The notes beneath the pieces are model-generated. The model searched no databases. It saw only the letters and a list, made by a program, of their open reading frames with translations, and was not told the origin of the DNA. The position numbers and the translations under genes are program-made. A DNA stretch of 64,000 nt. Source: an uncultured Lachnospiraceae bacterium (lineage in GTDB: Bacteria; Bacillota; Clostridia; Lachnospirales; Lachnospiraceae). The DNA lies in the NCBI GenBank assembly GCA_951800685.1, contig CATOJY010000002.1, positions 62,001 through 126,000 on the forward strand, written 5' to 3'. Every line of letters starts with the position of its first letter. Positions within the stretch are counted from its first letter, which is position 1. Below are positions 2,621 through 53,585 of this stretch, piece by piece.

Positions 2621-2703
2621 AAGAGAAGGTGGTCTATGCCAGAAATGCTGGCAAGCGGATTGTCCTGATTAAATATTGATTGTTATTATTTACGGAGGAT
2701 ATA

Positions 2704-3792: not shown

Positions 3793-3841
3793 CAGGTGTA
3801 ATTGCAGAAGACAGGGATGTTATGAACAGCAGGGGAGCAGA

Positions 3842-4771: not shown

Positions 4772-4869
4772 GCTGGGCAGCGGTCAGACTATGTTTGCAA
4801 CAGACAACACGGATAAGCGGTACGGCATAAAGAGAAGTTTCTGATTGGAAGAGGAAAGGAAATCGCTTC

Positions 4870-6678: not shown

Positions 6679-6825
6679 GGCATTGAAACCATTACAGAGG
6701 GCAGACGACTGGACACAGGCATTAGGACTGGCAGTGTGTCTGGAATAGGCGTTTGTGTGAAATGATATGGGGAGCGGCACTATAGCAGCAAGAACAGACA
6801 GGACGGGAAAGGGAATCACAACATT

Positions 6826-7866: not shown

Positions 7867-7903
7867 GAATTAGGCCGGGAAGCCAGGGAAGATAAGAAGG
7901 TTA

Positions 7904-9511
7904 ATGATTTGCATGGTGAAAAATAAAAAAAAGAACGAAGAAAACAGATACAAAAAAGGCTGCAGGGCGCTCCAAAAGATCTGGCGGAAGCTGGTTGGCT
8001 ATGCTGCCGGGATTCCCATGGAGAGGATGGCGGTATATGCGGGGATTTTACTGGTCTTGTCTTTGAGCCCGTTGCTGTGGTTAGGAAGATACAACGTGAT
8101 GTGTATTGACGATTACGACTATGGCAGAAGAGTGCATGATGTGTGGATGGAGTCTGGTTCTTTGGTGCAGTCGGTGCAGGCGGCCTGGCAGCAGAATATG
8201 GAGTTTTACCAAGATTGGCAGGGAACTTATATTTCCTGCTTCCTGATGGCGCTCTGTCCAATGAACTTCAAGTATGAGATTGCGTGGGTAGTTCCGCTGC
8301 TAATGGTTGGATTACTTGTTTCTTCTGTGTTCCTGTTGGGTACCCATATTTTAAGGAAATGGCTGGGTGCGGATGCGGCGGGCAGTACTTTTGTCATGTT
8401 CATGGTGCTGTTTATGTTCTATCAGGTGTTGGAAGCGCCTTTCGAGGGAATTTATTGGTATAATGGTGCAACGCATTATGTATTGATGCAGTCAGTGTGG
8501 TTTTTTGCACTGGCGGCGGTATCGTCCAGCTTGTGGACGCAGAAGAAAGCAAAGGAAGTGGTTCTGTGCCTGATGGCGTCCATTCTGGCGGTTATTGTCG
8601 GCGGCGGTAATTTGGTGACAGGGCTGCAGGCGGAGATCCTTCTGGCTCTTCTGGTACTGTATGCGGCGGTGCTAAACCGCAGGAAGCTTATGGCAGTGCT
8701 TATCCCCTTTCTTATAGGCAGCGCTGGATTTCTGGTCAATGTTATGGCGCCAGGAAACATAAGGCGGGGGAGCATGGATATGGACGAGGGTTATTCTGCG
8801 GTGGCGTCAGTGCTTCTTTCGTTTTATCATGCAGTAGTTTTTATCATCCGCTGGACGCCGGTTTTTGTTGTACTCATTTGGCTTGCGCTGCTTCCAGTCC
8901 TCTGGAAGATGATGAAACATTCCAGAAGAGAGTTCCGGCACCCTGTCTGGGTGACAGCAGGCGCGTTCTGCGTTCTGTCGGCTATGTTTACGCCCACGCT
9001 GTATGCGCTTGGTATGGTGGGGCTATCAAGGATTGACAATATCATCCAGATGGTATACTACCTGTGCCTGGTTATGGTGACAGCTTACTGGATGGGGTAT
9101 TTTGCACATAGGAGATCTTACCGGAGGTCAGAGGACGCAGAGACTGATCTGGAACAAGACCTGGCGGGAGATCTGTTTGGCAGTTTCCTGGAAAAGACAC
9201 GGGGCAGAATGACGGCAGTCTGCCTGCTTTTGACGCTCATTGCCTGGATCTTTACGGCAGATAAGAATACTTATACTACGATATCCGCCCTGCGCTCCCT
9301 GCATAATGGGGATGCCCAGACCTTCTATGCGGAGGCTATGGCGCGGCATGAGATCTATACAGATGAAAGGATTGTAGATGTGGAGCTTAAACCCTACTCT
9401 GCCCGGCCGGCTTTGTTTGATTTCAATGATCTGACGGAGGATGCGGGAAATTGGCTGAATCTGGCAGTGATGCAGTATTACCACAAGGCATATGTGAAAG
9501 TGGTGGAATAA
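7904..9511 (+). CDS. DUF6056-like polytopic membrane protein (possible GT-C)
   Basis: A 535-residue integral membrane protein with about ten to eleven hydrophobic spans. After a basic N-terminus and a first membrane segment (43-60), an extracytoplasmic loop starts with CIDDYDYG (67-74). The acidic pair at the beginning of the first outer loop is typical of GT-C glycosyltransferases that use polyprenyl-phosphate sugars, and of the DUF6056 group. A charged stretch around 405-430 (ETDLEQDL) is cytoplasmic or a linker, and the last 70 residues after the final span form a soluble tail. A role in periplasmic-side glycosylation of the exported glycan is an inference. It could instead be a polymer-modifying or protein-glycosylating enzyme. 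Confidence 0.7.
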   Translation: MICMVKNKKKNEENRYKKGCRALQKIWRKLVGYAAGIPMERMAVYAGILLVLSLSPLLWLGRYNVMCIDDYDYGRRVHDVWMESGSLVQSVQAAWQQNMEFYQDWQGTYISCFLMALCPMNFKYEIAWVVPLLMVGLLVSSVFLLGTHILRKWLGADAAGSTFVMFMVLFMFYQVLEAPFEGIYWYNGATHYVLMQSVWFFALAAVSSSLWTQKKAKEVVLCLMASILAVIVGGGNLVTGLQAEILLALLVLYAAVLNRRKLMAVLIPFLIGSAGFLVNVMAPGNIRRGSMDMDEGYSAVASVLLSFYHAVVFIIRWTPVFVVLIWLALLPVLWKMMKHSRREFRHPVWVTAGAFCVLSAMFTPTLYALGMVGLSRIDNIIQMVYYLCLVMVTAYWMGYFAHRRSYRRSEDAETDLEQDLAGDLFGSFLEKTRGRMTAVCLLLTLIAWIFTADKNTYTTISALRSLHNGDAQTFYAEAMARHEIYTDERIVDVELKPYSARPALFDFNDLTEDAGNWLNLAVMQYYHKAYVKVVE

Positions 9512-34826: not shown

Positions 34827-36449
34827 GTGCTGAAAAGAGAGAACCATCCTAAATTGAATAAAAAACAGTCAGAGTGGTTGTTCTATAGTTCACTGGTTTT
34901 GCTGGCTCTTTTCGTTTTTCTGTTTGTCGGTTCCAGGGAACCGGTACTGTTTGATGATAGTGGCTCTTATATGAGAGTAGAACGCTTTGAAGGAGTTATG
35001 CCGGTTTATCCGCTTTTTTTACTGTTGAATCAGGCGCTGTTTGGGAGTGACAGTTATCTCAAAATTGTTATTGTTGAACAGGCGCTGTTAGCGGCTGGGT
35101 GCGTTATTCTTTTTGTCAGGGAGATCAAAGAGAGATTTAAACTGCGGTTTTGGGAAGGCTATCTGCTCTTCTTCCTGTCGCTGCTCTCTTTTACAACGGA
35201 GATGCCAGCGGCGATGATTACGCAGACCATCCTTACGGAAGGTCTGGCGTATGCACTGTTCCACGTTCTGATGATCTTATATTTGCGTGCAGTCTGGAGA
35301 AACAGCTATAAGTTTCTGGCGGCTTCTTTCGGAATGGTATATTTTTTGGCATTGCTGCGTTCCCAGCTGCAGATTCTTTTCGGCGTATGCGGCATTTTAT
35401 TTCTTTATCTGACATGGAAGCGATGTGATTCAATCAGGAAGAAGTTTGCCGGGTGTTTGGCTGGTATTGCCGGGTGTCTGGTGATCGGTGCGGTAGGAAT
35501 TGGGATCACGGCAGCATCGGTGAATCAGTATAACGCACTTATCACAGGTAATGTCAGGGTGAATCTGCTGATCATGAAGATTCAGGACCCGGAGTACTAC
35601 CAGGAATTTAGTATGGGGGAAGACGGCGAGGACAGAGAGCCTGGGGAAATCGAGGAAGCGGTAAAGGATAGACAAGACGTGCATGCTGCAAGAGGGGCTG
35701 ATATCAGGATAAGTCAGTATACCTCCCTCCTGTTTTCAAGAGGTATGTATGAGGCAGATGCGGAGGATGCAGCTTGTTTTGAGGATGAGATGGTGCGGGG
35801 GCTGTATCAGTCTATATATGAAGTGGCAGACCAGGAACAGAAGCGCTATGCTTATGAAGAAAAGAGTCTATGGATCTGGAAAGATATTGTGGGAGGCATA
35901 GGGACTGTTGGAAAAATTGGCGTGGCTGTAGGAAGTGAATTTTATAAGGAAAAATATCCGGAGATTTATGCTGCTGATAACTTTAACGAAATCTGGAACC
36001 GCAGTCTGCAGACAATCGGCCTGACTTTGATCCGGGGGCATTTTGGAAGATTCCTATATCATACGCTTATGATGCTTCCCCAGGGATTTATCTGTACCGT
36101 CTTTTTCCAGATCAAACAGATTTACCTGCTGTGCCATATGATTACGTTGTTTTTATATCTGTCAGCATTTGCCTTGATGATCTGGGGATACGCAGATAAG
36201 AGAGTTCCAAATCAGTGTGCAGAGTTTATGGCGATCGTTCTTGGCAGTAATGTAGTCATGGTGTTGATTATTTCACTTGTATTTTTTGGACAGCAGAGGT
36301 ATCTTGTATATAATTTCGGAATTTTCTATATAGCTTACTATCTGCTGTTAAGAATGCTGTGGAATACTTTTCTTCGTGTCAGAGTAGTGAGGCGGGCTTC
36401 CAGGAAAGATCAAAAGACTATAAGAATTCGGAAAGAACAGGCAGATTAG
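34827..36449 (+). CDS. polytopic membrane protein, possible GT-C glycosyltransferase
   Basis: A 540-residue protein with about ten spans. After span one (about 19-35) the first outside loop has LFDDSGSYMR (41-50), followed by MPVYPLFL; an acidic pair there and a conserved proline-tyrosine are typical of GT-C enzymes of the mannosyl-/arabinosyl-type. A long outside segment (about 240-350) is acidic and helical. The start is GTG 34827, well placed after GGTGAGGGAG. It may use the polyprenyl-phosphate sugar made by the DPM1-like GT2 directly downstream. The family is not recognised with confidence. Confidence 0.7.
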   Translation: MLKRENHPKLNKKQSEWLFYSSLVLLALFVFLFVGSREPVLFDDSGSYMRVERFEGVMPVYPLFLLLNQALFGSDSYLKIVIVEQALLAAGCVILFVREIKERFKLRFWEGYLLFFLSLLSFTTEMPAAMITQTILTEGLAYALFHVLMILYLRAVWRNSYKFLAASFGMVYFLALLRSQLQILFGVCGILFLYLTWKRCDSIRKKFAGCLAGIAGCLVIGAVGIGITAASVNQYNALITGNVRVNLLIMKIQDPEYYQEFSMGEDGEDREPGEIEEAVKDRQDVHAARGADIRISQYTSLLFSRGMYEADAEDAACFEDEMVRGLYQSIYEVADQEQKRYAYEEKSLWIWKDIVGGIGTVGKIGVAVGSEFYKEKYPEIYAADNFNEIWNRSLQTIGLTLIRGHFGRFLYHTLMMLPQGFICTVFFQIKQIYLLCHMITLFLYLSAFALMIWGYADKRVPNQCAEFMAIVLGSNVVMVLIISLVFFGQQRYLVYNFGIFYIAYYLLLRMLWNTFLRVRVVRRASRKDQKTIRIRKEQAD

Positions 36450-38632: not shown

Positions 38633-40537
38633 ATGAGGCATATAAAAAAACAGCGTTGGCCGCTTTGGGCTTTTATGATCCTGTTTCTTGTGCTGATTGG
38701 AATAGGGGAATGGTCAGAGCGTTATAGAATAGAAGATGTGGAAAACTGTATGGAAAGTCTTTCCTTCACAGTAAAGAACGGCAGATCGGAGCAGTGGATC
38801 CGTTGTTTTATAGATGAGGACGAACAGATTTCCTATCTGTTTTTACCTACGTATGCAAATATGAGCAGTGTAGCAGTGGATTTCGGAGGCGCCGACCGGG
38901 TGACGGTTGGACAAGGAGAAAATGCAGTATCGCTGAAACGTGGGGAGACGTTAGGCGCACTGGAAATAGGAAAACAATATGATCTGCGATTTATGAAACA
39001 GGGGGAGATGCTGTCTGAGGAACGATTGGTGATTATGCACTCAGCAAATCTCCCGGCAATGTTTCTGGAAACAGAAAGTGGATCAATGGAAAAGGTAGAC
39101 GCTGATAAAGATTATGAAGAGCCGGGCAGAGTTATGCTGATCGATCTGGATGGCAGTGTTGTCTGTGCAGATAAATTACAGCATATTTCAGGACGGGGCA
39201 ATTCAACTTGGGCATATGCGAAAAAGTCTTATGGTATCAAGCTTAAAGAAGCTGCGGACTTATTCCAGATGGGGAGTGCGAGGAACTGGATACTATTGAG
39301 CAACGTGGAGGATAATACTTATATAAGGAATAAGATTACTTATGATATGGCAATTGCAGCAGGCATGGAGGGAGCGCCAGAGTCAAGATATATAGATTTA
39401 TATATCAATCACGAGTATCATGGCATGTACCAGCTGTGTGAAAAGATTGAAATTGACCAGCAGAGGATTCCAATCGAGGATCTTGGACTGCAGAACAAGA
39501 AACTTAACAAGGGAATAGAGTCAGCAGAACGGTTTCATACAGAAATGCAAAAGGGGGTTTTATTAGAGTACGAGCCTTATGACAGATCGGGAGGCTATTT
39601 GCTGGAGAGGGATGTCATGGCAAAATATGGGTCTGAGATTAGTGGATTTGTGACCCAGGTTTTGCATGACAATTATACAGTGAAAGAACCGAAATATGCG
39701 TCCAAGGGCGAAATGGATTATATCAGTAACTTTGTTTCAGAAATGGAGAAGGCAGTAGTAGCAGAAGATGGAATCAATGAAGATACGGGAATGAGCTATT
39801 TGGATTATCTTGATCTGAGATCATTCGCGCAAAAATACATGATAGAAGAATTATGCAAAAATAATGGTGGTGGGGCAACAAGTTCATTTTTTTATAAGCC
39901 ACAGGATAGTATCAGCAAGAAACTGTTTGGTGGGCCGGTATGGGATTATGACAAGGCCTATGCAAAAATCTATGGCTTCGATGGAACGACCAGAAATCTG
40001 TGTTATCTGAGTCAGCGGGGAGAGAGTACGGTCTTCTTTTGGTATTTAAGCAGGCATCCTGAGTTTCAGCAGATGGTCTCTCAGTGTTATCAAGAATTTT
40101 TTTCGGATTATATACAGAGAATTTGTGATGAATTGATTATCGCCTATGCATCGGAGATCTATGCCGCAGAGGAGATGGACGGGATCAGATGGAAGAAGAT
40201 TTATGGAGAAAGAGATTCTTATGGCCAGAGATCCCAAGTCATCAAAGAGTTTCTAACAGGGCGTAAAGAATTCCTGGATGAAGTATGGACTGGAAAGAAA
40301 GAGTTGTGTACGATACATTTTATTGCGGAAGAATATTCCAGAGATACTTATATGAGTGTAATCAAAGGGGAATGCCCAGGGGTGCTTCCAGTCGGGGAGC
40401 CACACAGCGTGTCAGACGGACGGGTATTTGATGGATGGTTTACACAGGATGGGGAGTTGTTCGATGGAACACAGCCGCTTAATGAAGACATTACGGTATA
40501 TAGCAGCAGTCATGAATTGTCCGGCGCGGAGGAATAG
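38633..40537 (+). CDS. CotH kinase family membrane-anchored protein, copy 2
   Basis: A 634-residue paralog of the protein at 26129. A signal-anchor helix (about 10-25), an outside beta-rich N-terminal region, SGRGNSTW (186-193) and GPVWDYD (434-440) define the CotH fold with its metal-binding aspartates. The C-terminal 75 residues (TIHFIAEEY to VYSSS) again look like a degenerate InlB B-repeat module with GWF. The protein is predicted to act outside the membrane, possibly as a kinase on a surface protein or on glycan. It is followed by a GT4 two bases downstream, the same arrangement as copy 1. Confidence 0.87.
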   Translation: MRHIKKQRWPLWAFMILFLVLIGIGEWSERYRIEDVENCMESLSFTVKNGRSEQWIRCFIDEDEQISYLFLPTYANMSSVAVDFGGADRVTVGQGENAVSLKRGETLGALEIGKQYDLRFMKQGEMLSEERLVIMHSANLPAMFLETESGSMEKVDADKDYEEPGRVMLIDLDGSVVCADKLQHISGRGNSTWAYAKKSYGIKLKEAADLFQMGSARNWILLSNVEDNTYIRNKITYDMAIAAGMEGAPESRYIDLYINHEYHGMYQLCEKIEIDQQRIPIEDLGLQNKKLNKGIESAERFHTEMQKGVLLEYEPYDRSGGYLLERDVMAKYGSEISGFVTQVLHDNYTVKEPKYASKGEMDYISNFVSEMEKAVVAEDGINEDTGMSYLDYLDLRSFAQKYMIEELCKNNGGGATSSFFYKPQDSISKKLFGGPVWDYDKAYAKIYGFDGTTRNLCYLSQRGESTVFFWYLSRHPEFQQMVSQCYQEFFSDYIQRICDELIIAYASEIYAAEEMDGIRWKKIYGERDSYGQRSQVIKEFLTGRKEFLDEVWTGKKELCTIHFIAEEYSRDTYMSVIKGECPGVLPVGEPHSVSDGRVFDGWFTQDGELFDGTQPLNEDITVYSSSHELSGAEE

Positions 40538-43853: not shown

Positions 43854-44930
43854 ATGATAACGCATATTGTAGGAAACAGACCTCAATTTATTAAGTTAGC
43901 GCCGCTTTATCACGAATTGGAGCGGGGAGGATATGAGCAGAATATTATCCACAGCGGACAGCATTATGATGAAAATATGTCCGATGTTTTTTTTGAAGAA
44001 TTAGGGATACCGGCGCCTTCGGTGAATTTGTCGGCGGGTGGGGGCAGCCATGCGCAGATGACGGCGAAGACGATGGTTGGTCTCGAAAAGGAACTGGTGA
44101 AGCGTAAGCCAGACCTGGTCATTTTGTATGGTGATACCAATACGACACTGGCGGGGGCAGTGACAGCGGCGAAGCTGTGTATTCCGATTGCGCATGTGGA
44201 AGCAGGCCCAAGAGTACATGATAAATCTAACCCAGAAGAATGCAACAGAATTGTAACAGATCATCTGTCAGATGTCCTATTCAGCCCGGACGCCATATCG
44301 TTCCAGAATCTGGAGCGTGAAGGATTGGGGAAGAAGGCATGTATCACAGGTGATATCATGTACGATACGTATCTGTCTATTGCGGCCAAATCGGTTGAGA
44401 ACCGGGATGCAGGGCAGGAAGAGATTGTTGTAATGACATGGCACAGGCAGGAGAACACAGCGGACAGAGGACGTATGGAGAGTATTCTGGATCTGATAGA
44501 GAAGCTGGAAAGCAGAGTGGTTTGTCCGCTGCATCCACGTACCCGGAAATGTCTGAAACAGTTTGGACTGCTGGAGCGGGCTGAGACAATCCCTAATCTG
44601 GAGATCATAGAACCTGTAGGCTATACAGAGATGGTGAGACTCATGAACAGTGCGCGGCTGATCCTGACAGACTCTGGCGGTGTTTCTAAGGAGTCGTCTT
44701 ATGCAGGCGCTAAATGTCTGTTTATGCTGGAACTGGATGTATGGGAAGATCTGGTGCGGGACAACTGGATCCATAAGTTTGATCCTGAGAATACAGCAAG
44801 TGCAGAGGAAGCGCTTGTTTTTGCAAAGAAAGCGCAAAGAGTGGCACAGGCAGATAGGCCGAGCTATTATGGAAACGGTCATGCAGCAGCTAAAATGGTG
44901 CAGGAATTGGAGAATAGAAGTTTTATCTAA
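43854..44930 (+). CDS. wecB: UDP-N-acetylglucosamine 2-epimerase (non-hydrolysing)
   Basis: A 358-residue GT-B-fold epimerase interconverting UDP-GlcNAc and UDP-ManNAc, or the 2,3-diacetamido equivalents (WbpI type). VGNRPQFIKLAPL at the start, SGQHYDENMSD, GDTNTT (93-98), HVEAG (114-118), RIVTDHLSD and SGGVSKESSYAG are diagnostic. Length matches the family. Together with the Gfo/Idh and DegT genes directly downstream it could make a ManNAc3NAc-type sugar, or it may simply feed the GT26 domain encoded at 24021. AGGAGAGG precedes the ATG. Confidence 0.93.
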   Translation: MITHIVGNRPQFIKLAPLYHELERGGYEQNIIHSGQHYDENMSDVFFEELGIPAPSVNLSAGGGSHAQMTAKTMVGLEKELVKRKPDLVILYGDTNTTLAGAVTAAKLCIPIAHVEAGPRVHDKSNPEECNRIVTDHLSDVLFSPDAISFQNLEREGLGKKACITGDIMYDTYLSIAAKSVENRDAGQEEIVVMTWHRQENTADRGRMESILDLIEKLESRVVCPLHPRTRKCLKQFGLLERAETIPNLEIIEPVGYTEMVRLMNSARLILTDSGGVSKESSYAGAKCLFMLELDVWEDLVRDNWIHKFDPENTASAEEALVFAKKAQRVAQADRPSYYGNGHAAAKMVQELENRSFI

Positions 44931-45072
44931 TTATAAAAGGATTTAGTAAAATTTTTTATTGGATCAGTTTGAAGAGAATAAAATTCCAGGAAAGCAGCCG
45001 GGATTTTGTGCGGTTTCTAAGAGTGTTTCTGCCGGGAAATGCGGCGGACAGTGATTCTGATTGGAGGTAATT

Positions 45073-46149
45073 ATGAAATATGCGTTGATAGGCTGTGGGA
45101 GAATCTCTCCTAACCATATTGTGGCGGCACAGAAGAATAATCTGGAGATTGTTGCGATCTGCGATCTGAGTGAACGCAACATGAAGGATAAAATGTTAAA
45201 ATTCAGGCTGCCAGATTCCGTGAATTGTTATACTGATTACAAAGAGATGCTTACCAAGGAGAAACCGGAATTGGTAGCCATTGCGACGGAAAGCGGCAAA
45301 CACGCGCAGATCGCAGTTGACTGCATGACGATAGGGCATGCGAACCTGATCATTGAGAAACCGATTGCGTTATCTTTGGTGGATGCAGACAGGATCATAG
45401 AGACAGCCCATAAGGAAAACGTAGTAGTGTGTGCATGTCACCAGAACCGCTTTAACAAATCTATTCAGAAGATACGGGAAGCTGTGGAAATGGAGCGGTT
45501 CGGAAGAATGTTCCATGGGACGGCGCATGTCAGATGGACGAGGGATTATGAATATTATTCCAGGGCGAAGTGGCGCGGAACCTGGGAACAGGATGGCGGC
45601 GCTTTGATGAACCAGTGCATCCATAATATTGATCTTTTGCGGTGGATGATGGGAGATGAAATAGACTGTGTCGTAGGCATGACGGACAAGCTGAAACATA
45701 ATTATATCGAAGCAGAGGATTTAGGAATTGCCCTGATCAAGTTTAAAAATGGGGCATACGGCATTGTAGAGGGAACTACCAACGTGTATCCTTCCAATCT
45801 GGAGGAGACTTTATATCTTTTTGGGGAAAAGGGAACCGTCAAAGCAGGGGGCAGTTCGGTGAATGTCATAGAAGAATGGCGGTTTGCGGATGTGCTGGAT
45901 GATGCCGAACAGGTAAAGCAGCAGTTCCATGAGAATCCGCCGAATGTGTACGGATATGGGCATACGCCGCTTTATGAGGATGTTGTAAATGCCATCAAAA
46001 ATGGCACACAGCCTTATGTGAATGCCGAGGCCGGCAGGCGGGCATTGGAGCTGGTATTGGCAATCTATCAGTCGGCGGCAACAGGAGAAGTAGTGAAATT
46101 CCCATTGAAGGATTGTGATACGATGCGTTTTCAGGGACGGTTTGACTGA
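45073..46149 (+). CDS. Gfo/Idh/MocA family nucleotide-sugar dehydrogenase
   Basis: A 358-residue NAD-dependent oxidoreductase. The dinucleotide loop is IGCGRISPNH (6-15), EKP (95-97) is the conserved active-site motif, CHQNRFN the next block, and GGALMNQCIHNIDLLRW provides the catalytic His/Asp region. It resembles the Gfo/Idh enzymes that oxidise C3 of UDP-GlcNAcA (WbpB/WlbA role) or C3 of a similar sugar before transamination. Perfect GGAGG sits six bases before ATG 45073. It is preceded by a 142-base gap with no recognisable element, and followed by the aminotransferase. Confidence 0.9.
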   Translation: MKYALIGCGRISPNHIVAAQKNNLEIVAICDLSERNMKDKMLKFRLPDSVNCYTDYKEMLTKEKPELVAIATESGKHAQIAVDCMTIGHANLIIEKPIALSLVDADRIIETAHKENVVVCACHQNRFNKSIQKIREAVEMERFGRMFHGTAHVRWTRDYEYYSRAKWRGTWEQDGGALMNQCIHNIDLLRWMMGDEIDCVVGMTDKLKHNYIEAEDLGIALIKFKNGAYGIVEGTTNVYPSNLEETLYLFGEKGTVKAGGSSVNVIEEWRFADVLDDAEQVKQQFHENPPNVYGYGHTPLYEDVVNAIKNGTQPYVNAEAGRRALELVLAIYQSAATGEVVKFPLKDCDTMRFQGRFD

Positions 46150-46256
46150 TGAAAAAGCGCATGAGTGCGATTAGGATTATCCTGAGAATGTATTGGAAAG
46201 AGCAGTTTAGTGATGTTGAAGGCAATCGGTAGCAGGAATGGGGAAAGAGGTCATTG

Positions 46257-47378
46257 ATGGAATTTCGGGATTTAAAGACACAATATCTACAACATAAAGA
46301 AGAAATTGATTCTGCAATGCAGCGCGTTGTCTGTAATGCACAGTTTATAGGAGGAGAGCCCATACGGCAGCTGGAGGAAGAATTGGCGGCTTATGTTGGG
46401 GTGAAACACTGCATTTCCTGCGCTAATGGGACGGATGCACTGCAGCTTGCGCTGATGGCTTGGGGAGTAGGAGAAGGGGACGCTGTATTTGTTCCTGATT
46501 TCACCTTTTTCTCCACGGCGGAAGTAGTACCATGGGTTGGCACTGTCCCCATTTTTGTCGACGTGGACCGGGATACTTTTAATCTGTCGCCGAGTGCATT
46601 GGAAGAGGCTGTTAAGAGCGTACTCAAAGAAGGCAGATTGACGCCGAAAGTGGTTATTGCAGTGGATCTGTTCGGACAGCCAGCAGATTGTGATACGATC
46701 CGTAAGATTGCGGAGCAATACGGAATGTGGCTTTTGGAGGATGGCGCGCAGGGATTTGCTGGGCGGATTGGTGACCACATGGCGTGCAGCTTTGGCGATA
46801 TCACGACAACCTCGTTTTTTCCAGCCAAGCCATTGGGGTGTTATGGGGATGGCGGCGCAGTCTTTACAGATCATGATGAGTGGGCAGAGCTGATCCGCTC
46901 TTATAAGGTGCATGGAAAAGGTGAGGATAAGTATGATAATATAAGAATCGGACTGAATTCCAGGCTGGATACCCTGCAGGCAGCAATCCTGATAGAGAAG
47001 CTGAAATTCCTGGATGAAGAAACAGAACGTTGTAATGAGGCGGCGAAGAGATACACTTCGTTTTTAAAGGAAATTGTGAAAACACCGATAGTGCTGCCGG
47101 ATTATTATTCGAGCTGGGCACAATATACAGTGCAGTTTGATGGAAAAGAACAGCGGGAAAGGGCTATGGTTAAGCTGAAAGATGCGGGGATTCCAAGCAT
47201 GATCTATTATAAGAAGCCTTTGCATAGACAGAAAGCGTTTGCTGGTTTATTGGCTGGACAGCCGGCATGTCCTATTACAGAGGAGATCTGTGATACCTGT
47301 TTATCCTTACCGATGCATCCCTATCTGAAAGCGGAAGAGATAGAGAGGGTTTGCGATATACTACAGGAGAACCTTTAG
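46257..47378 (+). CDS. DegT/DnrJ/EryC1/StrS sugar aminotransferase
   Basis: A 373-residue PLP enzyme. CANGTDALQLAL is the phosphate-binding segment, LLEDGAQGF carries the ring-stacking Asp, and FFPAKPLG holds the Schiff-base lysine (K191). GYGDGGAV and LNSRLDTLQAAIL are also typical. The Gfo/Idh gene directly upstream suggests that it aminates a 3-keto nucleotide sugar, as WbpE does in the ManNAc3NAcA pathway; transamination at C4 is an alternative. No dedicated WbpA-type UDP-GlcNAc 6-dehydrogenase is visible. AGAGG precedes ATG 46257. Confidence 0.93.
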   Translation: MEFRDLKTQYLQHKEEIDSAMQRVVCNAQFIGGEPIRQLEEELAAYVGVKHCISCANGTDALQLALMAWGVGEGDAVFVPDFTFFSTAEVVPWVGTVPIFVDVDRDTFNLSPSALEEAVKSVLKEGRLTPKVVIAVDLFGQPADCDTIRKIAEQYGMWLLEDGAQGFAGRIGDHMACSFGDITTTSFFPAKPLGCYGDGGAVFTDHDEWAELIRSYKVHGKGEDKYDNIRIGLNSRLDTLQAAILIEKLKFLDEETERCNEAAKRYTSFLKEIVKTPIVLPDYYSSWAQYTVQFDGKEQRERAMVKLKDAGIPSMIYYKKPLHRQKAFAGLLAGQPACPITEEICDTCLSLPMHPYLKAEEIERVCDILQENL

Positions 47379-47460
47379 TACTGCTTAGGTGTGAATGTGA
47401 AGGCTGTGGGGTGTCAGTGTGCAGCCAGGGATGATGGAAGCAAGGTCTGGATAAGATGGC

Positions 47461-49167
47461 ATGATGAATAAAAAAATGGAAACAATACATGGATTTTTAG
47501 CCGCCCGCAACATGGATATCAGCTGTCTTGGACAGTATGTAGAGATGGGCGAATGTAGACAATATAATAATCTTCTGGGCAAGTTTCCGAAGGATCAGGT
47601 GTTTTTGGAGGAAGAGGGTCAGATCAGTTTCCTGGATGGCTATGTGCATAACAAGAAGGAAGTGACCGCAGACAGCGGCAGGGAAGATTGGCCGCGTGCT
47701 TTTGCAGATGCCATGAAGCGGGATCCAGAGCAAACTTTGCAGAGACTGCGGGGTGGTTTCTGCGGTTATCTCTACCACAGTAAGGAATCCAGGCTGATCG
47801 CCTATACAGACCAGACCTCTGTGAAAGTATTGTATTACTATGTAGATGGTGAGCAGTGGATGATTTCCGACTGTCTTGTTTATATGACAGAAGTATTGCG
47901 GGAGAATGATGTCAAGTATGATCTAAACGAGATGGCAGTGAAGTATATGCTGACATATGGCTATATGCTGGATGGAAGTACTTTTGTAAAGCAGATCCAC
48001 CGCCTGCTTCCGGGGCAGATTGTCCGTATTGCAGGAGGCGCTGTCGATGTCAGCAGATATTATGCGATCTGTGACAAAGAAGTGCAGATGTCTGAACAAG
48101 AAGCCGTCGAAAAGGTAGACGCGGCTTTCCGGGAGGCCGTCCGGCGTGAATTTGAAAAGGACCGGGAATATGGCTACCGGCATCTGGTAGATTTAAGCGG
48201 CGGCCTGGACAGCAGGATGGTGTGCTGGGTGGCACATAATCTTGGGTATACGGATCAGTTAAATATTGCATACAGCAAGTCTGGTTACCTGGATGATAAG
48301 ATATCCAGACAGATTGCAGGCGATTTGAAACATGAATACTTGTTTAAGCCGCTAGATGATCTGAAATGGATGTATGACCTTGAACAGATTGTCAGGCAGA
48401 ACAGCGGAGCGGCACTTTATTCCGGCATAACAGGGGGAGCACGGTTGTTGGGGCTGCTCAATAGGGACCAGTTTGGCATTGAGCATACAGGTATGATTGG
48501 AGACGCGGTCTTATCTACCTTTTACCATGATAAGAGCTTTAATTACGGGAAACCCAGGATGGGCTTCCACAGATATTCTGAAAGGCTGGCCTATGATTTT
48601 GAGGATACTGTGACAAAAGCGTATCCCTGCCAGGAAATGTTTGCTATTTATACAAGAGGAATCCTGGGAGCGCAGAGTTCCTATAGGATCAGGCAGCATT
48701 ATGTGGAAACGGCATCTCCATTTATGGATGTGGATTTTCTGGATACCGTTTTCTCGATTCCTTTTGATTACAGGAATGACCACCGCCTCTATCTTATGTG
48801 GATTAAGGAAAAATATCCGGAAGCGGCTCATTACGGCTGGGAGAAATGGGGCGGAGTCAAGCCCATGGAATCACATATTTTCTTACGGAAGTTGAAGACG
48901 ACGCAGGGGCTGCTTTGGCAGATGCTGTGCAATATACTGGGGATTAAGAACAGGGACTCGATGAATCCGTTGGATGCATGGTATTTAGAAGATAAAGAAG
49001 TGCAAAGATACTGTGAATCCTACTATGAGGAGCATATTGGGCATGAGATCTTTAGGGAACCGATTCGGAACGATATTACAGTGATGTTTGGGCAGGGGAG
49101 TGCGGCGGAGAAGAGTATGGCGCTTACGGTGCTGGCAGCAGCGGAGTTGTATTTTAACAAAAGGTAG
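47461..49167 (+). CDS. asparagine-synthase-like protein lacking the glutaminase cysteine
   Basis: A 568-residue protein with an AsnB-like layout. The ATP-pyrophosphatase loop is intact (LSGGLDS, 245-251), and ASPFMDVDFLD and SDCLVYMTEVL match the synthetase half. The N-terminal glutaminase-like domain is kept in outline (GGFCGYLYHSKESRLIAYTDQ), but the protein starts MMNKKMETIHG, with no Cys at position 2. It therefore cannot hydrolyse glutamine in the usual way. It could use free ammonia or another amine to form an amide or lactam on an adenylated carboxylate, for instance a uronic acid of the glycan. ATG 47461 or 47464 are equivalent. Confidence 0.82.
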   Translation: MMNKKMETIHGFLAARNMDISCLGQYVEMGECRQYNNLLGKFPKDQVFLEEEGQISFLDGYVHNKKEVTADSGREDWPRAFADAMKRDPEQTLQRLRGGFCGYLYHSKESRLIAYTDQTSVKVLYYYVDGEQWMISDCLVYMTEVLRENDVKYDLNEMAVKYMLTYGYMLDGSTFVKQIHRLLPGQIVRIAGGAVDVSRYYAICDKEVQMSEQEAVEKVDAAFREAVRREFEKDREYGYRHLVDLSGGLDSRMVCWVAHNLGYTDQLNIAYSKSGYLDDKISRQIAGDLKHEYLFKPLDDLKWMYDLEQIVRQNSGAALYSGITGGARLLGLLNRDQFGIEHTGMIGDAVLSTFYHDKSFNYGKPRMGFHRYSERLAYDFEDTVTKAYPCQEMFAIYTRGILGAQSSYRIRQHYVETASPFMDVDFLDTVFSIPFDYRNDHRLYLMWIKEKYPEAAHYGWEKWGGVKPMESHIFLRKLKTTQGLLWQMLCNILGIKNRDSMNPLDAWYLEDKEVQRYCESYYEEHIGHEIFREPIRNDITVMFGQGSAAEKSMALTVLAAAELYFNKR

Positions 49168-49218: not shown

Positions 49219-50595
49219 ATGGTGAAATATAAAATAGAAGAACTTGATTTTATCTTCATTTACGAGCACAAGGTAAGAGAGCTGGAAAATTTGTGCCTGT
49301 TGAAATATGAATTAGACCGCAGAGGATATAAGAGCAAAATTGTCCATATCGAAGACGCGGAAGCGTTGAAAGCGATGCGCCCCATCTATCATGCGAAAGT
49401 AGTCGTGACAATGGCATGTTACCAGAACAGTTCAATTGAGTGGCATACGAAAAACTTTGTTAAGTTTGATAAACTGATTGATCTGCAGTGGGAGAATATT
49501 GTTTTCCCAATGGATGAAAAAGATAAGAAAGCGTTTAAAAACTATTCCGGCGTGGCGAAAGATGTGGTCAGGATCTCCTGGGGGGAAATGAACAAAAAGC
49601 GTATGCTGGAGGTGGCCGGGATGGATCCGAAAAAGGTGAAGATGATCGGCCACGTGGGTATGGATTTTCTGCGGGAAGAGCTGAAAGGCTACTATCGGAC
49701 CAAAGAAGATGTCCTGCAGGAATATGGCATTCCGGCAGATAAAAAGATTTTCCTTTTCATCTCACCTTATTTTTCTGATAAGCATACGGAAGAATATCTG
49801 ATAGAAATGTGTAAACGTTTTGGAGAAGGATGGAGATACTATTATCAGGACTGCATGCTCCCTTCTAAGAAGATTATTTTAGACTGGATGAGCAAAGTCT
49901 GTGAACAGAGAGAGGATATTGTATTTATTTACAGGCCGCATCCGGGGGAGGAGAGCAGACAGGCGGATGAAATGACGCGGAAATATGCCAATTTTAAAGT
50001 AATCGGCACACAGTCTGTAAAGCAGTGGATCTTGATCAGCGATAAGATTTATACGGGGAACAGTTCTACCTTTGTGGAGGCGTTTTTTGGCAGGAAAATG
50101 TGCTATCTGCTTTTTCCAGTCCCGGTTCCGGCAGACTATGAGCTGGCATTTCTCAAGGAGGCCGATAAGATACAGACCTTTGAGGAATTTGAGAAAACAA
50201 CTCATGACGACGACAGACCTTTTCCGGTCAGCGAGAAGCTGATCGATGAAGTATATACCATTGACTGGGACAAGCCAAGTTATATCAAGTTTGCCGATAT
50301 GGCTGAGGAAGTGATCAAGAATCCTTACTATAATCTGACCAGGGAACAGTTAAAGGCATATTATCACAAGATGGGTCCCGCGGAGAAGCTGACGAAGGCA
50401 CTTACGAAGGTCACGCCTCTCTATAATGTATATCTGACAATGTTGGAATCTGACCGTCCCAGATGGAAATGGTTAGAGACAAAGCGGGAGGACAGAAGGA
50501 AGTTAGAGCGGATCGCGCATGATTTTGAGAAGACGAGTGAGGAAGAGATCACGGCCGTCATTGCAAAGATTGCGGGAGAACTGCAGGCGAAGTGA
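49219..50595 (+). CDS. TagB/KpsC-like GT-B surface carbohydrate biosynthesis protein
   Basis: A 458-residue soluble protein with a GT-B-like C-terminal domain. FIYRPHPGEE is the hallmark of CDP-glycerol glycerophosphotransferases and related Kdo-transferase-like surface carbohydrate proteins, and GNSSTFVEAFFGRKM closes the site. IFLFISPYFSDKHTEEY starts the second half. The N-terminal half is less conserved. Given its place just before the CMP-sugar module, transfer of a CMP-activated sugar is a reasonable guess; glycerol-phosphate transfer is the alternative. The C-terminal 60 residues are a charged helix. Confidence 0.72.
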   Translation: MVKYKIEELDFIFIYEHKVRELENLCLLKYELDRRGYKSKIVHIEDAEALKAMRPIYHAKVVVTMACYQNSSIEWHTKNFVKFDKLIDLQWENIVFPMDEKDKKAFKNYSGVAKDVVRISWGEMNKKRMLEVAGMDPKKVKMIGHVGMDFLREELKGYYRTKEDVLQEYGIPADKKIFLFISPYFSDKHTEEYLIEMCKRFGEGWRYYYQDCMLPSKKIILDWMSKVCEQREDIVFIYRPHPGEESRQADEMTRKYANFKVIGTQSVKQWILISDKIYTGNSSTFVEAFFGRKMCYLLFPVPVPADYELAFLKEADKIQTFEEFEKTTHDDDRPFPVSEKLIDEVYTIDWDKPSYIKFADMAEEVIKNPYYNLTREQLKAYYHKMGPAEKLTKALTKVTPLYNVYLTMLESDRPRWKWLETKREDRRKLERIAHDFEKTSEEEITAVIAKIAGELQAK

Positions 50596-50745
50596 TCTTA
50601 TTATATGGATTGGTGAAGCATGAAGCCGTCCGTAGTATGGAAGTGGTGAATTGTATAGAGAGTTATATTATAGGATATACGATCGGTACAAAGTTACAGA
50701 AAGATGGGAAACAGACAGTACAGTTTAGAAACGGAGGAAGAGAAA

Positions 50746-51423
50746 ATGGACAAAACAATTACAGCAGTGATACCGGTGAAAGGGAACAGCACACGTCTGC
50801 CAAATAAGAATATTCTGCCATTCGCAGATTCAAATCTTCTGATCCATAAGATCAGGCAGTTGAAACAGGTGGAAGAAATCACAGATATTATTGTGTCTTC
50901 TGACTGTGATGAGATGCTTAAAATGGGAGAAGAGGAAGGGGTGACAGCGATCAAGAGACCTACGAAATATGCGGATGAATCAGTGCCGTTCGGTATGTTC
51001 TTGGAGTATCTGAGCGATGAGATGCCAAATGAGCATATTATGTGGGCTTGCGTTACTTCTCCGCTGGTGGAACCTTATCTGTACCGGAAAGCGATCACAA
51101 CTTACTTTGAAAAGCTTCAGGAAGGGTATGATTCTCTAATCACATGCTGCCCCTATCAGACCTATCTGATGGATGAGAAAGGACCACTTAATTTCAGCAT
51201 GGGCTTAGCGCATAAGAATTCAGAGCTGCTTCCGATGCTGTATCACTTTACAAACGGAATCAATCTGGCGCCCAGAGTGAAGTTGAAAGAATGGCATTAT
51301 AATTATGGTCCCAATGCATATAGACTGCTTGTGAATAAGAGAGAGGCAGCTGATATCGATGATGCCTATGATTATGAGTGCGCAAAGGCCATGTATGCTA
51401 TGAAGGATCCCCATCCAACTGTT
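50746..51423 (+). CDS. CMP-sugar synthetase (acylneuraminate/Kdo cytidylyltransferase-like)
   Basis: A 226-residue nucleotidyltransferase. VIPVKGNSTRLPNKNI at the N-terminus is the CTP-binding loop of NeuA/PseF-type enzymes; DIIVSSDCDEM and ATSPL-like VTSPLVEP follow, and ADIDDAYDYECA is the C-terminal metal-binding block. It should activate a 2-keto-3-deoxy sugar acid with CTP. GGAGGAAG chooses ATG 50746. It starts the three-gene module 50746-53585 and is followed by the aldolase after 33 bases. The sugar is not identified. Confidence 0.88.
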
Positions 51424-51456
51424 TAATGACGGGAAAAACAATATAAGGTGAAGGTT

Positions 51457-53070
51457 ATGGCAGAGATTAAATTACTTGACTGTACCCTCCGCGACGGCGG
51501 GTATATTAATGACTGGAATTTCGGTGAATATACAATCAGGGAGATCATGGCTAAGCTGGTCGGGTCGGGCGTGGACTATATTGAGGTGGGATTCCTGCGG
51601 GATTGTGAATATGAAACGGGAAAGGCACTGTTTAATAATTGTGCCGAGATTGCGCAGATTCTTCCAGAAAACCGCGGAAACACGAAGTTTACCGCAATGT
51701 CTTTGCACAATAAATATGACATTGATAAACTGGAACCCTATGATGGAAAGACGATTGATGCGGTCCGAGTGACTTTTCACGATTATGATATTGATGAAGG
51801 GTTAGCTTATATCCGAAAGGTAAAGGAAAAGGGGTATAAGGTCTTCATCAATCCGATCAACATTATGGGCTATTCGGATGAGACGATCTTGCAGATTCTC
51901 CATAAAGTAAACGAGATCCAGCCGTATGCCTTTTCTATTGTTGATACCTTTGGCTCTATGATGAAAGATGATTTGCTGCGTATTTATTCCTTGGTGGAGC
52001 ATAATCTGAGCAAGAATATTGTGATTGGGCTGCATCTTCATGAAAATCTGGCACTTTCTTATTCTCTCGCACAGGATTTCCTGAATATGAAAGCAAGTGA
52101 CAGAGAGTGCGTGATCGATGCTTCCATGCTGGGAATGGGACGTTCTCCGGGAAATCTGTGTATGGAGCTGATCATGGATTATATGAACAAGTACCAGTCC
52201 GGACACTACGATGTCAATCCGGTATTAGATGGGATTGATGATCATATTGCCCAGCTCAAGCAGATTGAGCCTTGGGGGTATAATACTGCCTACTCGATCT
52301 CTGCGAAATATAATCTGCACCGTAATTACGCGGAATTTCTGTTGGATAAAGGACGTCTGCGGGCGAAGCAGATCAATCAGATTCTTGGAAGCATTGCGCA
52401 GGATAAGAAAACGGCCTATGACGAGTCCTATATTGAGGGACTGTATCAGGATTTCCAGAATAGGGATATCGATGATTCTGGCATGCTTAGAATGCTTCAA
52501 CGACAGTTAGCTGGAAGAAAGTGCCTGGTTTTAGCGCCTGGATCAAGTATAGTAAGGGAAACGGAGAAAATTGAAGAATATATCAGAAAAGAGCAGCCAG
52601 TCGTAATTGCTGCGAATTTTGTTCCGGATTCTTACCAGCCAGATTTTGTGTTTTGCTGCAATGCTGTCCGGTTGGAAAGAATCCTGGGCAGCAAGGGACT
52701 GCCGAAGCTGATCTGCACGTCTAATCTGTTGGAGATGCTGCCAGAGAAGAAGCTGGGTGAGGATAAGCTTCTTGCAGTGAATTACAGCGATCTGCATTTT
52801 GGTGAGTCAGGACCATCTGATAACAGCGTGATTATGTTGCTGCGTCTGCTGAGAAAACTGGAGGTATCTGGTGCAGTATTGGCGGGATTTGACGGCTATC
52901 GCACAAATTCTGCGTTTGGCGCTAACTATGCTGCCAATTATATGGCAAGTCAGCATACCAAGGGAGACGAAGAAAACCGGAAGATCAGGGGCTGCATGAA
53001 ACAACTTGCGAAGCATATGGATCTTATGTATTTGACAGAGTCTTTGTACCAAATTGAGGAAGAGAGATGA
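51457..53070 (+). CDS. DRE-TIM metal-dependent aldolase fused to a C-terminal Rossmann-type domain
   Basis: A 537-residue two-domain protein. Residues 1-345 are an HMGL-like barrel: DCTLRDGG (8-15; Arg12, Asp13), IVDTFGS (161-167) and GLHLHEN (191-197), with His193 and His195 as metal ligands. Enzymes such as 4-hydroxy-2-oxovalerate aldolase add or remove pyruvate enolate by this chemistry. Residues 353-530 are a separate alpha/beta domain, CLVLAPGSSI, then PDFVFCCN, SDNSVIMLLRLL and AVLAGFDGY. This layout resembles GT42 sialyltransferases and DUF115/MAF proteins. The gene lies between a CMP-sugar synthetase and a KdsC-like phosphatase, overlapping the latter. Role as an ulosonic-acid synthase is inferred. 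Start ATG 51457 follows AAGGTGAAGG. Confidence 0.87.
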   Translation: MAEIKLLDCTLRDGGYINDWNFGEYTIREIMAKLVGSGVDYIEVGFLRDCEYETGKALFNNCAEIAQILPENRGNTKFTAMSLHNKYDIDKLEPYDGKTIDAVRVTFHDYDIDEGLAYIRKVKEKGYKVFINPINIMGYSDETILQILHKVNEIQPYAFSIVDTFGSMMKDDLLRIYSLVEHNLSKNIVIGLHLHENLALSYSLAQDFLNMKASDRECVIDASMLGMGRSPGNLCMELIMDYMNKYQSGHYDVNPVLDGIDDHIAQLKQIEPWGYNTAYSISAKYNLHRNYAEFLLDKGRLRAKQINQILGSIAQDKKTAYDESYIEGLYQDFQNRDIDDSGMLRMLQRQLAGRKCLVLAPGSSIVRETEKIEEYIRKEQPVVIAANFVPDSYQPDFVFCCNAVRLERILGSKGLPKLICTSNLLEMLPEKKLGEDKLLAVNYSDLHFGESGPSDNSVIMLLRLLRKLEVSGAVLAGFDGYRTNSAFGANYAANYMASQHTKGDEENRKIRGCMKQLAKHMDLMYLTESLYQIEEER

Positions 53071-53585
53071 ACTGGGAGAAGATCAGATATCTGATTATAG
53101 ATGTGGACGGCACCATGACAGACGCAGGTATTTATTATGATGAGCATGGCAACGAACTTAAGAAGTTCTGCACGAAAGATGCGGCAGGCTTTTTTGCGGC
53201 GCGTAAGGCCGGAATACAGGTTATGGTATTGACTGGAAGAGAGTGCGCGGCAACGACCCGCAGAATGACCGAGATGAAGGTAGATTATTTGGTGCAGAAT
53301 TGTAAGGACAAGGTTACCTATCTGGCCCGCTTCATGGAAGAAGAGCAGATTGGCAGAGAACAGATGGGATATCTTGGAGATGATTTGAATGATCTGCCAG
53401 CCATGGGGTTGTGCGGATTTGTGGGCTGCCCAGAGGATTCCTGCATAGAAGTGAAGGAAAGGGCGGATTATGTGTCTTCGGTTAAAGGAGGCCATGGCGC
53501 TGTGAGAGATATTATAGAGCATCTGTTGAGAAGCAGAGGAGAATGGGAAAAAGTCACTGCGGAGATTTATGGGATTGGGATATAG
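53067..53585 (+). CDS. KdsC-like HAD phosphatase
   Basis: A 172-residue capless (C0) HAD hydrolase. IDVDGTMTD (11-19; Asp12, Asp14), LTGRE (55-59), Lys82 in CKDK, and GDDLND (104-109) match 3-deoxy-manno-octulosonate-8-phosphate phosphatase and the related sialic-acid phosphatases. The start overlaps the aldolase stop by four bases (ATGA), showing co-translation. In this module it should remove phosphate from the aldolase product before CMP activation. Length equals that of standard KdsC. Confidence 0.92.
   Translation: MNWEKIRYLIIDVDGTMTDAGIYYDEHGNELKKFCTKDAAGFFAARKAGIQVMVLTGRECAATTRRMTEMKVDYLVQNCKDKVTYLARFMEEEQIGREQMGYLGDDLNDLPAMGLCGFVGCPEDSCIEVKERADYVSSVKGGHGAVRDIIEHLLRSRGEWEKVTAEIYGIGI

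Follow-up and report, generated by a model that had tools for sequence, protein, structure and literature searches.

To our knowledge, the characterised biosyntheses of CMP-activated ulosonic acids rely on PEP to form the keto acid, via NeuB, KdsA, or their kin. The CMP-Kdo pathway comprises KdsD, KdsA, KdsC, and KdsB, and the CMP-nonulosonate pathways (sialic, legionaminic, and pseudaminic acid) use a NeuB/LegI/PseI-type synthase and a NeuA/PseF-like synthetase. A compact gene set in a gut bacterium, an uncultured member of the Lachnospiraceae, apparently directs the synthesis of an acidic sugar akin to sialic acid or Kdo via a pyruvate aldolase. We propose, with a probability of roughly 0.8 that rests on sequence comparison, that the product of this operon is a CMP-activated 2-keto-3-deoxy sugar acid and that the pyruvate aldolase replaces the PEP-dependent synthase (NeuB or KdsA). 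The module shares its NeuA/PseF-like synthetase with the CMP-nonulosonate pathways but has no NeuB/LegI/PseI-type synthase. It resembles the CMP-Kdo pathway in its phosphatase, which scores over the KdsC/YrbI cut-off, and, at other loci, in KdsB-type synthetases and (in one genus, g10) a KpsF/KdsD-family isomerase. It differs from that pathway in that a DRE-TIM pyruvate-type aldolase stands in for the PEP-dependent KdsA and in that the synthetase found here is NeuA/PseF-like. The features, numbered along the 64,000-nucleotide stretch of DNA that we analysed (the window), are:

49219..50595, + strand: putative glycosyltransferase, 458 aa, just upstream of the synthetase (TIGR04396 match)
50746..51426, + strand: CMP-sugar (ulosonate) synthetase, NeuA/PseF-like (ORF 50704-51426; PF02348 match)
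51448..53070, + strand: two-domain aldolase, DmpG-type DRE-TIM barrel plus C-terminal domain (PF00682 match)
53067..53070, + strand: ATGA stop/start overlap of the aldolase and phosphatase genes (ORF coordinates)
53067..53585, + strand: HAD phosphatase of the KdsC/KDN-9-phosphatase type (TIGR01670 over cut-off)

Synthetase, aldolase, and phosphatase are encoded by three consecutive ORFs on the + strand that form one tight operon (50746-53585). The original prediction had named these three adjacent genes and the ATGA overlap of the last two; ORF positions and family scans bear out the former, and the overlap is where the coordinates above place it.

The likelier start of the synthetase is 50746, which is Met15 of the ORF, rather than the ORF opening at 50704. 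The protein matches CTP_transf_3 (PF02348) with 47.2 bits (cut-off 22.6), and its PDB matches are CMP-Neu5Ac synthetases (6ifd, 6.5e-7; 9ftb, 4.9e-6), as for the CMP-ulosonate synthetase of a PEP-dependent pathway. Its best NCBIfam model is PseF (62.1, short of the cut-off of 205.7). R31 and K35 are invariant across 80 aldolase-linked synthetases, including this one. Two types of synthetase pair with the aldolase, NeuA/PseF-like and KdsB-like; by a motif pattern, 40 of 90 are KdsB-like (an earlier pattern left 16 unsorted). Six of the KdsB-like proteins were scanned, and all passed NF003952 and three passed the TIGR00466 (kdsB) cut-off.

The phosphatase (172 aa) is of the KdsC type that acts on ulosonate phosphates: it reaches the cut-off of TIGR01670 (KdsC/YrbI; 127 bits against 106.95), falls short of the equivalog cut-offs for KdsC and KDN-9-phosphatase (135.7 and 134 against 208 and 180), and has 3e81 as its best PDB chain by sequence (E = 4.5e-31). 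All 35 aldolase-linked homologues, counting that of the window, conserve D12, D14, T56, K82, and D106.

The aldolase (540 codons, GTG start) matches HMGL-like (PF00682) with 64.3 bits (cut-off 29). Its nearest characterised barrel relatives by profile are the 4-hydroxy-2-oxovalerate aldolases DmpG and BphI, whose NCBIfam models are its best matches, but its scores (69.8 and 59.2) are far under the cut-offs (229 and 286). A profile of the aldolase family finds DmpG (1nvm) at E = 4e-27 and isopropylmalate synthase at best at 2.3e-12, and on this ground we rejected a Claisen-type function like that of isopropylmalate or homocitrate synthase. R15, D16, H196, and H198 are invariant in 63 aldolase sequences and align with R17, D18, H200, and H202 of 1nvm, which we take to be the pyruvate and metal residues of DmpG. 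Counting against our reading, the catalytic His21 of DmpG aligns with Tyr19 in the window aldolase (Tyr, His, and others in relatives). The window aldolase also differs from DmpG and BphI in its C-terminal domain and in its surface-polysaccharide context, where we noticed no neighbouring acylating dehydrogenase as a partner. The closest solved structure by sequence, 3dxi (profile E = 2.8e-49), is described as a putative aldolase only and, unlike the window protein, is a 320-aa chain without the C-terminal domain.

The barrel spans roughly residues 4-300 and the C-terminal domain, of about 190 aa and absent from the original prediction, roughly residues 352-540. A profile comparison of this domain with ten neighbouring MptE-like proteins gave a probability of 38% (E = 3e-4), and a PDB search gave the C-terminal part of SteA (E = 0.24) and an unrelated dehydrogenase (E = 1.1). 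Among 128 related aldolase ORFs, 12 are short; the long form, with the domain, is found in 83 synthetase-linked aldolases and in 21 that are linked to a thiamine (TPP) enzyme. As both contexts have the domain, a role as a dedicated CMP-sugar transferase is unlikely.

We infer the reaction, pyruvate as the donor, the sugar, and the order of the steps as follows. The metal-dependent aldolase would join pyruvate to a sugar phosphate aldehyde to give a 2-keto-3-deoxy-ulosonate phosphate. Phosphate removal by the KdsC-type phosphatase would drive the aldol step, in itself reversible, towards synthesis, and the NeuA/PseF-like synthetase would then add CMP to the ulosonic acid. Finally, the neighbouring glycosyltransferase would use the CMP-ulosonic acid in making the surface polysaccharide whose genes surround the operon.

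The module is widely conserved in gene content, tight linkage, and catalytic residues. A synthetase of the CMP-ulosonate type lies within four genes on the same strand at 89 of the 128 related aldolases and directly upstream at 79. Where a synthetase gene immediately precedes the aldolase (80 loci, counting the window), the two are separated by a median of 3 nt, and by at most 60 nt in 77 loci; the aldolase and phosphatase genes overlap in 19 of 35 loci. We considered whether all HMGL paralogs belong to the system and rejected this: the 340-aa type, which in the window's own genome lies beside tyrS, is partnered by neither a synthetase nor a TPP enzyme nor a phosphatase. With this paralog as the control, a synthetase was nearby in 0 of 21 loci (a few of which are truncated at contig ends). 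The short gaps, the frequent overlap, and the empty control indicate that the module is more than chance. Counting against our reading, 17 of the 128 aldolases have neither a synthetase nor a TPP partner. Because the first set of loci (56 ORFs) supplied the synthetase profile, the second set (72 intact ORFs from 80 loci) gives a cleaner test; the two sets are not fully separate, as L045 and L128 are apparently one contig. With an identity limit of 85%, 114 of 129 aldolases were kept (window included), of which 80 are synthetase-linked. The aldolase tree is a quick FastTree in which 40 of 115 inner branches are poorly supported.

The strongest evidence for our reading is an exchange of KdsA and the aldolase in genus g10, which looks like a non-orthologous displacement when the operons are compared. 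An isomerase of the KpsF/KdsD family (the arabinose-5-phosphate isomerase family) is over the cut-off in 8 of 29 genomes of this genus. Two of these have the operon order synthetase-KdsA-KdsD. In the other six, the aldolase takes KdsA's part (synthetase-aldolase-KdsD in five, synthetase-KdsD-aldolase in one), and KdsA was undetected in these six genomes (one of which, G403, is only 86% complete). The genes that flank the two types of operon are homologous, and in the best-matched pair (G399 and G118), identity is 68% between the KdsD isomerases and 53% between the synthetases. The aldolases of G118 and the window are 42% identical. Five of the six KdsD-linked aldolases are 94-100% identical to G118's, so the swap amounts to about two independent cases. 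The two isomerases that we scanned score 322 and 327 with the KdsD equivalog, below its cut-off of 505, and pass the KpsF/GutQ subfamily cut-off. We predict with fair confidence that the substrate in these six genomes is D-arabinose 5-phosphate, which would yield 3-deoxy-octulosonate 8-phosphate (Kdo-8-P or an epimer). This replacement of KdsA is seen in the g10 relatives and not in the window operon, as no KdsD was seen near the window module, a point against our reading. Two further observations in g10 count against it: 11 of the 17 aldolase-bearing genomes have no aldolase-adjacent KdsD, and a KdsA-bearing genome (G266) also has two aldolases elsewhere, including a synthetase-linked one.

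A second possibility, which we consider improbable, is that the aldolase belongs to a CMP-sugar pathway and uses another donor (for instance 2-oxobutyrate) or a non-phosphorylated acceptor (such as a free or nucleotide-bound sugar aldehyde), with the phosphatase acting at another step. Tyr19 in place of the catalytic histidine of DmpG would fit this. So would the distribution of phosphatases, which also counts against our own reading: no recognised phosphatase lies within 3 genes at 42 of the 89 synthetase-linked aldolases, and the stretches retrieved for the six KdsD-aldolase operons showed none either. However, two different phosphatase families recur (KdsC in 34 of the 89 and the HAD_2 type in 13), and the isomerase that adjoins the aldolase in g10 points to a pentose phosphate.

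Third, and a shade less probable still, the synthetase could activate a nonulosonic acid that is made by NeuB in a distant pathway, while the aldolase makes an unrelated building block of the same cluster. The window's own genome does encode NeuB: its single PF03102 match (C2:13493-14209) lies outside the window, about 98 kb upstream of the synthetase. NeuB is present at E < 1e-40 in 19 of 32 genomes with the module, it lies about 13-25 kb from the aldolase in seven genomes of g10, and a NeuB-like gene (score 74) is found four genes upstream of one aldolase (at L160); the last two points count against our reading. On the other side, the NeuB of the window's genome is adjoined by a separate CTP_transf_3 synthetase (there are four CTP_transf_3 matches in this genome, of which C4:160 borders a contig end that hides its partner), and the genome has no TIGR01362 (KdsA) match. 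Thus, neither NeuB nor KdsA was found to serve the synthetase of the window operon, the case that would have refuted the original prediction. Furthermore, both a NeuB at E < 1e-40 and a KdsA over the cut-off are missing from 12 of the 32 genomes (completeness of 92% or more in all), and no NeuB of over 100 bits lies within 6 ORFs of any of the 128 aldolases. A distant NeuB would also leave the swap of KdsA and aldolase unexplained. The original prediction placed the aldolase in the role of the PEP-dependent synthase, with the phosphatase and the CMP-synthetase acting after it; the g10 exchange, the 89 synthetase-linked aldolases, and the 12 genomes without either synthase support it.

Finally, the aldolase could be a lyase that keeps the ulosonic acid in check or recycles it by cleavage, since the reaction of pyruvate aldolases can run both ways and the catabolic role of DmpG is that of a lyase. 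This is very improbable given the tight coupling of the aldolase gene with those of the synthetase and phosphatase and given that the aldolase takes KdsA's part of the operon in genomes where KdsA was undetected and where nothing else was seen that could supply the acid.

In other clusters, the aldolase lies beside a TPP enzyme and the CDP-dideoxysugar genes RfbF, RfbG, and RfbH (the CDP-3,6-dideoxy-4-keto-glucose genes of a YerE-type pathway). RfbH matches its profile in 13 of 22 TPP-linked loci, and the equivalog cut-offs are passed by one RfbH (L064) and by one RfbF and one RfbG (L098). We call the TPP enzymes YerE-like by context alone: the two that we scanned are of the acetolactate synthase class and below every cut-off shown. 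ErwE is reported to take 4-hydroxy-2-oxo acids as donors (PMC12247030). We infer that these clusters are another use for a 2-keto-3-deoxy acid. They would resemble the branched-sugar pathways of the YerE/ErwE type (yersiniose, erwiniose, and caryophyllose), in which decarboxylation and transfer of the keto acid would take the place of its activation with CMP; the window module has no such TPP gene. More broadly, it is rather likely that there is a widespread PEP-independent route to CMP-activated 3-deoxy-ulosonic acids, in which a DmpG-type metal aldolase acts on pyruvate and an aldose phosphate and stands in for KdsA (and NeuB) through non-orthologous displacement, and that sister clusters feed 2-keto-3-deoxy acids to YerE-like enzymes to make long-branched sugars.

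If our reading is correct, many glycans of sialic-acid-like and Kdo-like kinds go undetected in searches that are keyed to NeuB or KdsA, among them glycans of gut Firmicutes that lack LPS. The aldolase would be a possible new biocatalyst for making ulosonic acids from pyruvate, with arabinose 5-phosphate as a named candidate substrate, and a plausible source of hydroxy-keto-acid donors for YerE/ErwE-type enzymes. The module was not found among the matches listed in a search of the open-access PMC literature (subscription journals and preprints being outside its scope), and the word aldolase does not occur in the available part of PMC12409901.

The original prediction also did not include the upstream glycosyltransferase (49219-50595). 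It matches TIGR04396 (surface carbohydrate biosynthesis protein) with 137.9 bits (cut-off 125) and NF046086 (BFO_1060 glycosyltransferase) with 90.8, below the cut-off of 200; the available part of PMC6388019 does not mention BFO_1060. Homologues occur in 10 loci of close relatives and lie directly before the synthetase in all 8 whose gene order was compared. Its product is a possible user of the CMP-sugar. At other loci, putative glycosyltransferases from families of the CMP-sialate type lie near related modules, as in the CMP-nonulosonate pathways: a scan of 119 of 131 eligible neighbours (the families being the first 25 among the matches listed) found polysialyltransferase/GT52-like proteins and MptE-like proteins, and the latter are related to the GT42 sialyltransferases.

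The original prediction placed a CMP-sugar synthetase, a DRE-TIM aldolase, and a KdsC-like phosphatase next to one another, and open reading frames and family scans agree on all three genes, which form a single tight operon on the + strand. The operon and the gene before it are as follows:

49219-50595: TIGR04396 surface-carbohydrate protein (score above the cut-off), before the synthetase
50746 (likely start; Met15 of a reading frame that opens at 50704), + strand: synthetase, CTP_transf_3/PseF-like by family scans
51448-53070, + strand: aldolase, 540 codons with a GTG start, HMGL-like/DmpG-like by family scans
53067-53585, + strand: phosphatase, 172 aa, KdsC/YrbI by family scans

The predicted overlap of the last two genes is present in these coordinates (the phosphatase ATG and the aldolase stop share ATGA). 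The module is embedded in a glycosyltransferase-rich surface-polysaccharide cluster. Homologues of the TIGR04396 gene occur at 10 loci of close relatives, and the synthetase follows directly in all 8 of these for which the gene order was read. Upstream of the module (43854-49167) are genes for a UDP-GlcNAc 2-epimerase, a Gfo/Idh dehydrogenase, a DegT aminotransferase, and asparagine-synthase-like proteins, which perhaps provide a UDP-diamino sugar by a route that includes an amide step. A CotH-type kinase protein is encoded inside the polysaccharide cluster (38633-40537), and a 540-aa protein at 34827-36449 matched neither Pfam nor NCBIfam models under the thresholds applied.

The operon would thus encode a CMP-ulosonate pathway in which another enzyme class forms the carbon-carbon bond, most likely with a donor other than the usual one. 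We propose that pyruvate, as an enolate bound to a divalent metal, adds to the aldehyde group of an aldose phosphate. The reversible aldol step would be pulled forward first by the phosphatase and then by the CTP-driven activation, and a glycosyltransferase would consume the CMP-sugar. In the window, the synthetase belongs to the NeuA/PseF-like type, and the phosphatase is closest in the PDB to the 3e81 group, whose entry bears the name acylneuraminate cytidylyltransferase; we take 3e81 to be a KDN-9-phosphate phosphatase. No isomerase was seen near the window module. Among the matches listed from the open PMC literature, we found nothing on this module.

A less likely alternative is that a NeuB or KdsA encoded elsewhere serves the module synthetase. 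In the genome that contains the window, KdsA gave no match and NeuB a single one, which lies about 98 kb upstream of the module and is adjacent to its own synthetase. NeuB was found (E < 1e-40) in 19 of 32 module-bearing genomes of the same order. At the site of every one of the ten weaker PF03102 matches, the KDO8P-synthase model also gives a match under its cut-off; we take these ten for DAHP synthases. KdsA exceeded its cut-off in 3 of 33 genomes searched, with the window's genome counted among the 33; in G198, a truncated match falls short of it. In 12 of the 32 genomes, each with a completeness of 92% or more, NeuB at E < 1e-40 and KdsA over the cut-off are both missing (G283, G318, G373, G349, G376, G064, G116, G053, G267, G051, G206, and G136; in G318, the synthetase is several genes from the aldolase). 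As for NeuB, two observations count against our reading. First, in seven genomes of one genus, g10, the distance between NeuB and the aldolase is about 13-25 kb. Second, at locus L160, a NeuB-like gene (132 bits against a PseI cut-off of 340) is four genes upstream of the aldolase. This locus (2307-8584) has, in one row, the NeuB-like gene, an FkbM-family methyltransferase, a TPP enzyme, a KdsB-like synthetase, and the aldolase, and it fits neither simple context.

Genus g10 also suggests an exchange of KdsA for the aldolase. The KpsF/GutQ/KdsD family, which includes arabinose-5-phosphate isomerases, is over its cut-off in 8 of 29 g10 genomes (two of these KdsD proteins scored 322 and 327, below the KdsD equivalog cut-off of 505). 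KdsA is over its cut-off in two of the 29, each time beside KdsD: the order is synthetase-KdsA-KdsD in G399 and KdsB-like synthetase-KdsA-KdsD in G266. In the other six of the eight (G118, G230, G397, G398, G403, and G408; G403 is 86% complete), KdsD adjoins the aldolase and KdsA was not detected; the order is synthetase-aldolase-KdsD in five and synthetase-KdsD-aldolase in G403. Between G399 and G118, KdsD is 68% and the synthetases are 53% identical; thus, the operon flanks are homologous, with KdsA or the aldolase as the third gene. As five of the six aldolases (G118 counted) are 94-100% identical to that of G118 (G403, 68%), the swap amounts to about two cases. For these six genomes, D-arabinose 5-phosphate is the most likely aldose phosphate. 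The G118 and window aldolases are 42% identical over 332 aa. The exchange is not strict genome-wide: G266 holds the KdsA operon, one synthetase-linked aldolase, and one TPP-linked aldolase. Also, an aldolase match (E ≤ 1e-45) occurs in 17 of the 29 genomes, and in 11 of these it has no KdsD beside it. Neither of the two profiled phosphatase families (KdsC and HAD_2) was labelled in the g10 KdsD stretches read. At five g10 loci (L048, L049, L082, L096, and L207), a gene close downstream of the module encodes a secreted-looking protein of small size (about 180-200 aa, by eye).

Of the 128 aldolase reading frames that we collected, 56 come from the order to which the window's genome belongs and 72 from the best 80 loci listed for public genomes. 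For 89 of them (32 of 56 and 57 of 72, respectively), there is a CMP-ulosonate-type synthetase no more than four genes away in the same orientation, and for 79 it is directly upstream; with the window included, the gap has a median of 3 nt and is at most 60 nt in 77 of 80. The KdsC gene overlaps the aldolase gene at 19 of 35 loci, including the window. Among these pooled loci, KdsD was found only at L082 and L096, both from g10. As a control, a paralogous aldolase (the type beside tyrS in the window's genome) had none of these partners at 21 loci. Carriers among the matches listed, many of them metagenome-assembled, include Lachnospiraceae, Gemmiger, Bacillus, Paenibacillus, Proteocatella, Akkermansia, Bacteroidales, Spirochaetaceae, and Gastranaerophilales. 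Seventeen of the 128 have neither a synthetase nor a TPP partner, which counts against the reading.

The module's partners are exchangeable within their function. Of 90 synthetases, the window's among them, 40 were sorted by motif as KdsB-like and the remainder as NeuA/PseF-like. All six KdsB-like synthetases scanned score above the cut-off of NF003952 (3-deoxy-manno-octulosonate cytidylyltransferase), and three of them above that of TIGR00466 (kdsB): two from genomes without a KdsA match (G326 and G126) and that of L152. The phosphatase is KdsC-type for 34 and HAD_2-type for 13 of the 89 synthetase-linked aldolases; at 42 of these loci, no recognised phosphatase lies within three genes, which again counts against the reading. 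In a quick tree, the partner (synthetase or TPP enzyme) changes at least four times and the choice of KdsC or HAD_2 at least three times. Scans of 119 neighbours of synthetase-linked aldolases gave polysialyltransferase (7), GT52 (7), and MptE-like (6) matches. In the corresponding scan around TPP-linked aldolases (61 neighbours), 25 of 68 families were listed, and these three were not among them. When ten MptE-like neighbours were combined into a profile, it hit GT42 sialyltransferases (about 5e-4) and 5mu5 (6.8e-5), presumably a Maf protein. L047 (G249:C610, 1242-10130, on a 10-kb contig) has two aldolases with different synthetases (by motif, one NeuA/PseF-like and one KdsB-like) and a further KdsB-like gene. 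L044 (G283:C4, 3260-15409) is a variant cluster that combines the aldolase, KdsC, and a KdsB-like synthetase with an initial sugar transferase, a polysialyltransferase-like protein, and genes that by eye are ABC-exporter-like. It is reminiscent of ABC-exported capsules with Kdo linkers; L113-L115, L128, and L129 have similar layouts by gene size.

The aldolase family profile gives much stronger matches to 3dxi, a putative aldolase (E = 2.8e-49), and to DmpG (1nvm, 4e-27) than to isopropylmalate synthase (2.3e-12). R15, D16, H196, and H198 are invariant in 63 aldolase sequences and align with R17, D18, H200, and H202 of 1nvm, the pyruvate and metal residues of DmpG. Tyr19 of the window aldolase sits at the position of DmpG His21, a catalytic histidine, and this difference counts against the reading. 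After the barrel comes a C-terminal domain of about 190 aa (52501-53070) with a weak likeness to MptE-like proteins and SteA and no Pfam match. It is conserved in both synthetase-linked and TPP-linked contexts (motifs APG.S, TSN, and AGFDG) and is missing from 12 short forms among the 128 relatives.

The TPP-linked aldolases (22 of 128) have a TPP enzyme beside them and no synthetase. Two of these enzymes were scanned and fall into the acetolactate-synthase class, with scores under the cut-offs shown. RfbH is present at 13 of the 22 loci and an HAD_2 phosphatase at 8; one RfbH, one RfbF, and one RfbG passed their equivalog cut-offs. RfbF, RfbG, and RfbH make CDP-3,6-dideoxy-4-keto-glucose. According to PMC12247030, this sugar is the acceptor of YerE, ErwE prefers 4-hydroxy-2-oxo acids as donors, and the enzyme for caryophyllose is similar. 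DmpG-type aldolases make products of this class of acids. We infer that the TPP enzymes are YerE-like and are fed by the aldolase. A second full-length aldolase in the window's genome (L043, C24:1-17000; gene at 6396-8039, 35% identical) lies next to genes for a TPP enzyme and an RfbH-like DegT protein and to SDR genes; this locus, one of the 22, is a candidate cluster for a long-branched CDP-sugar.
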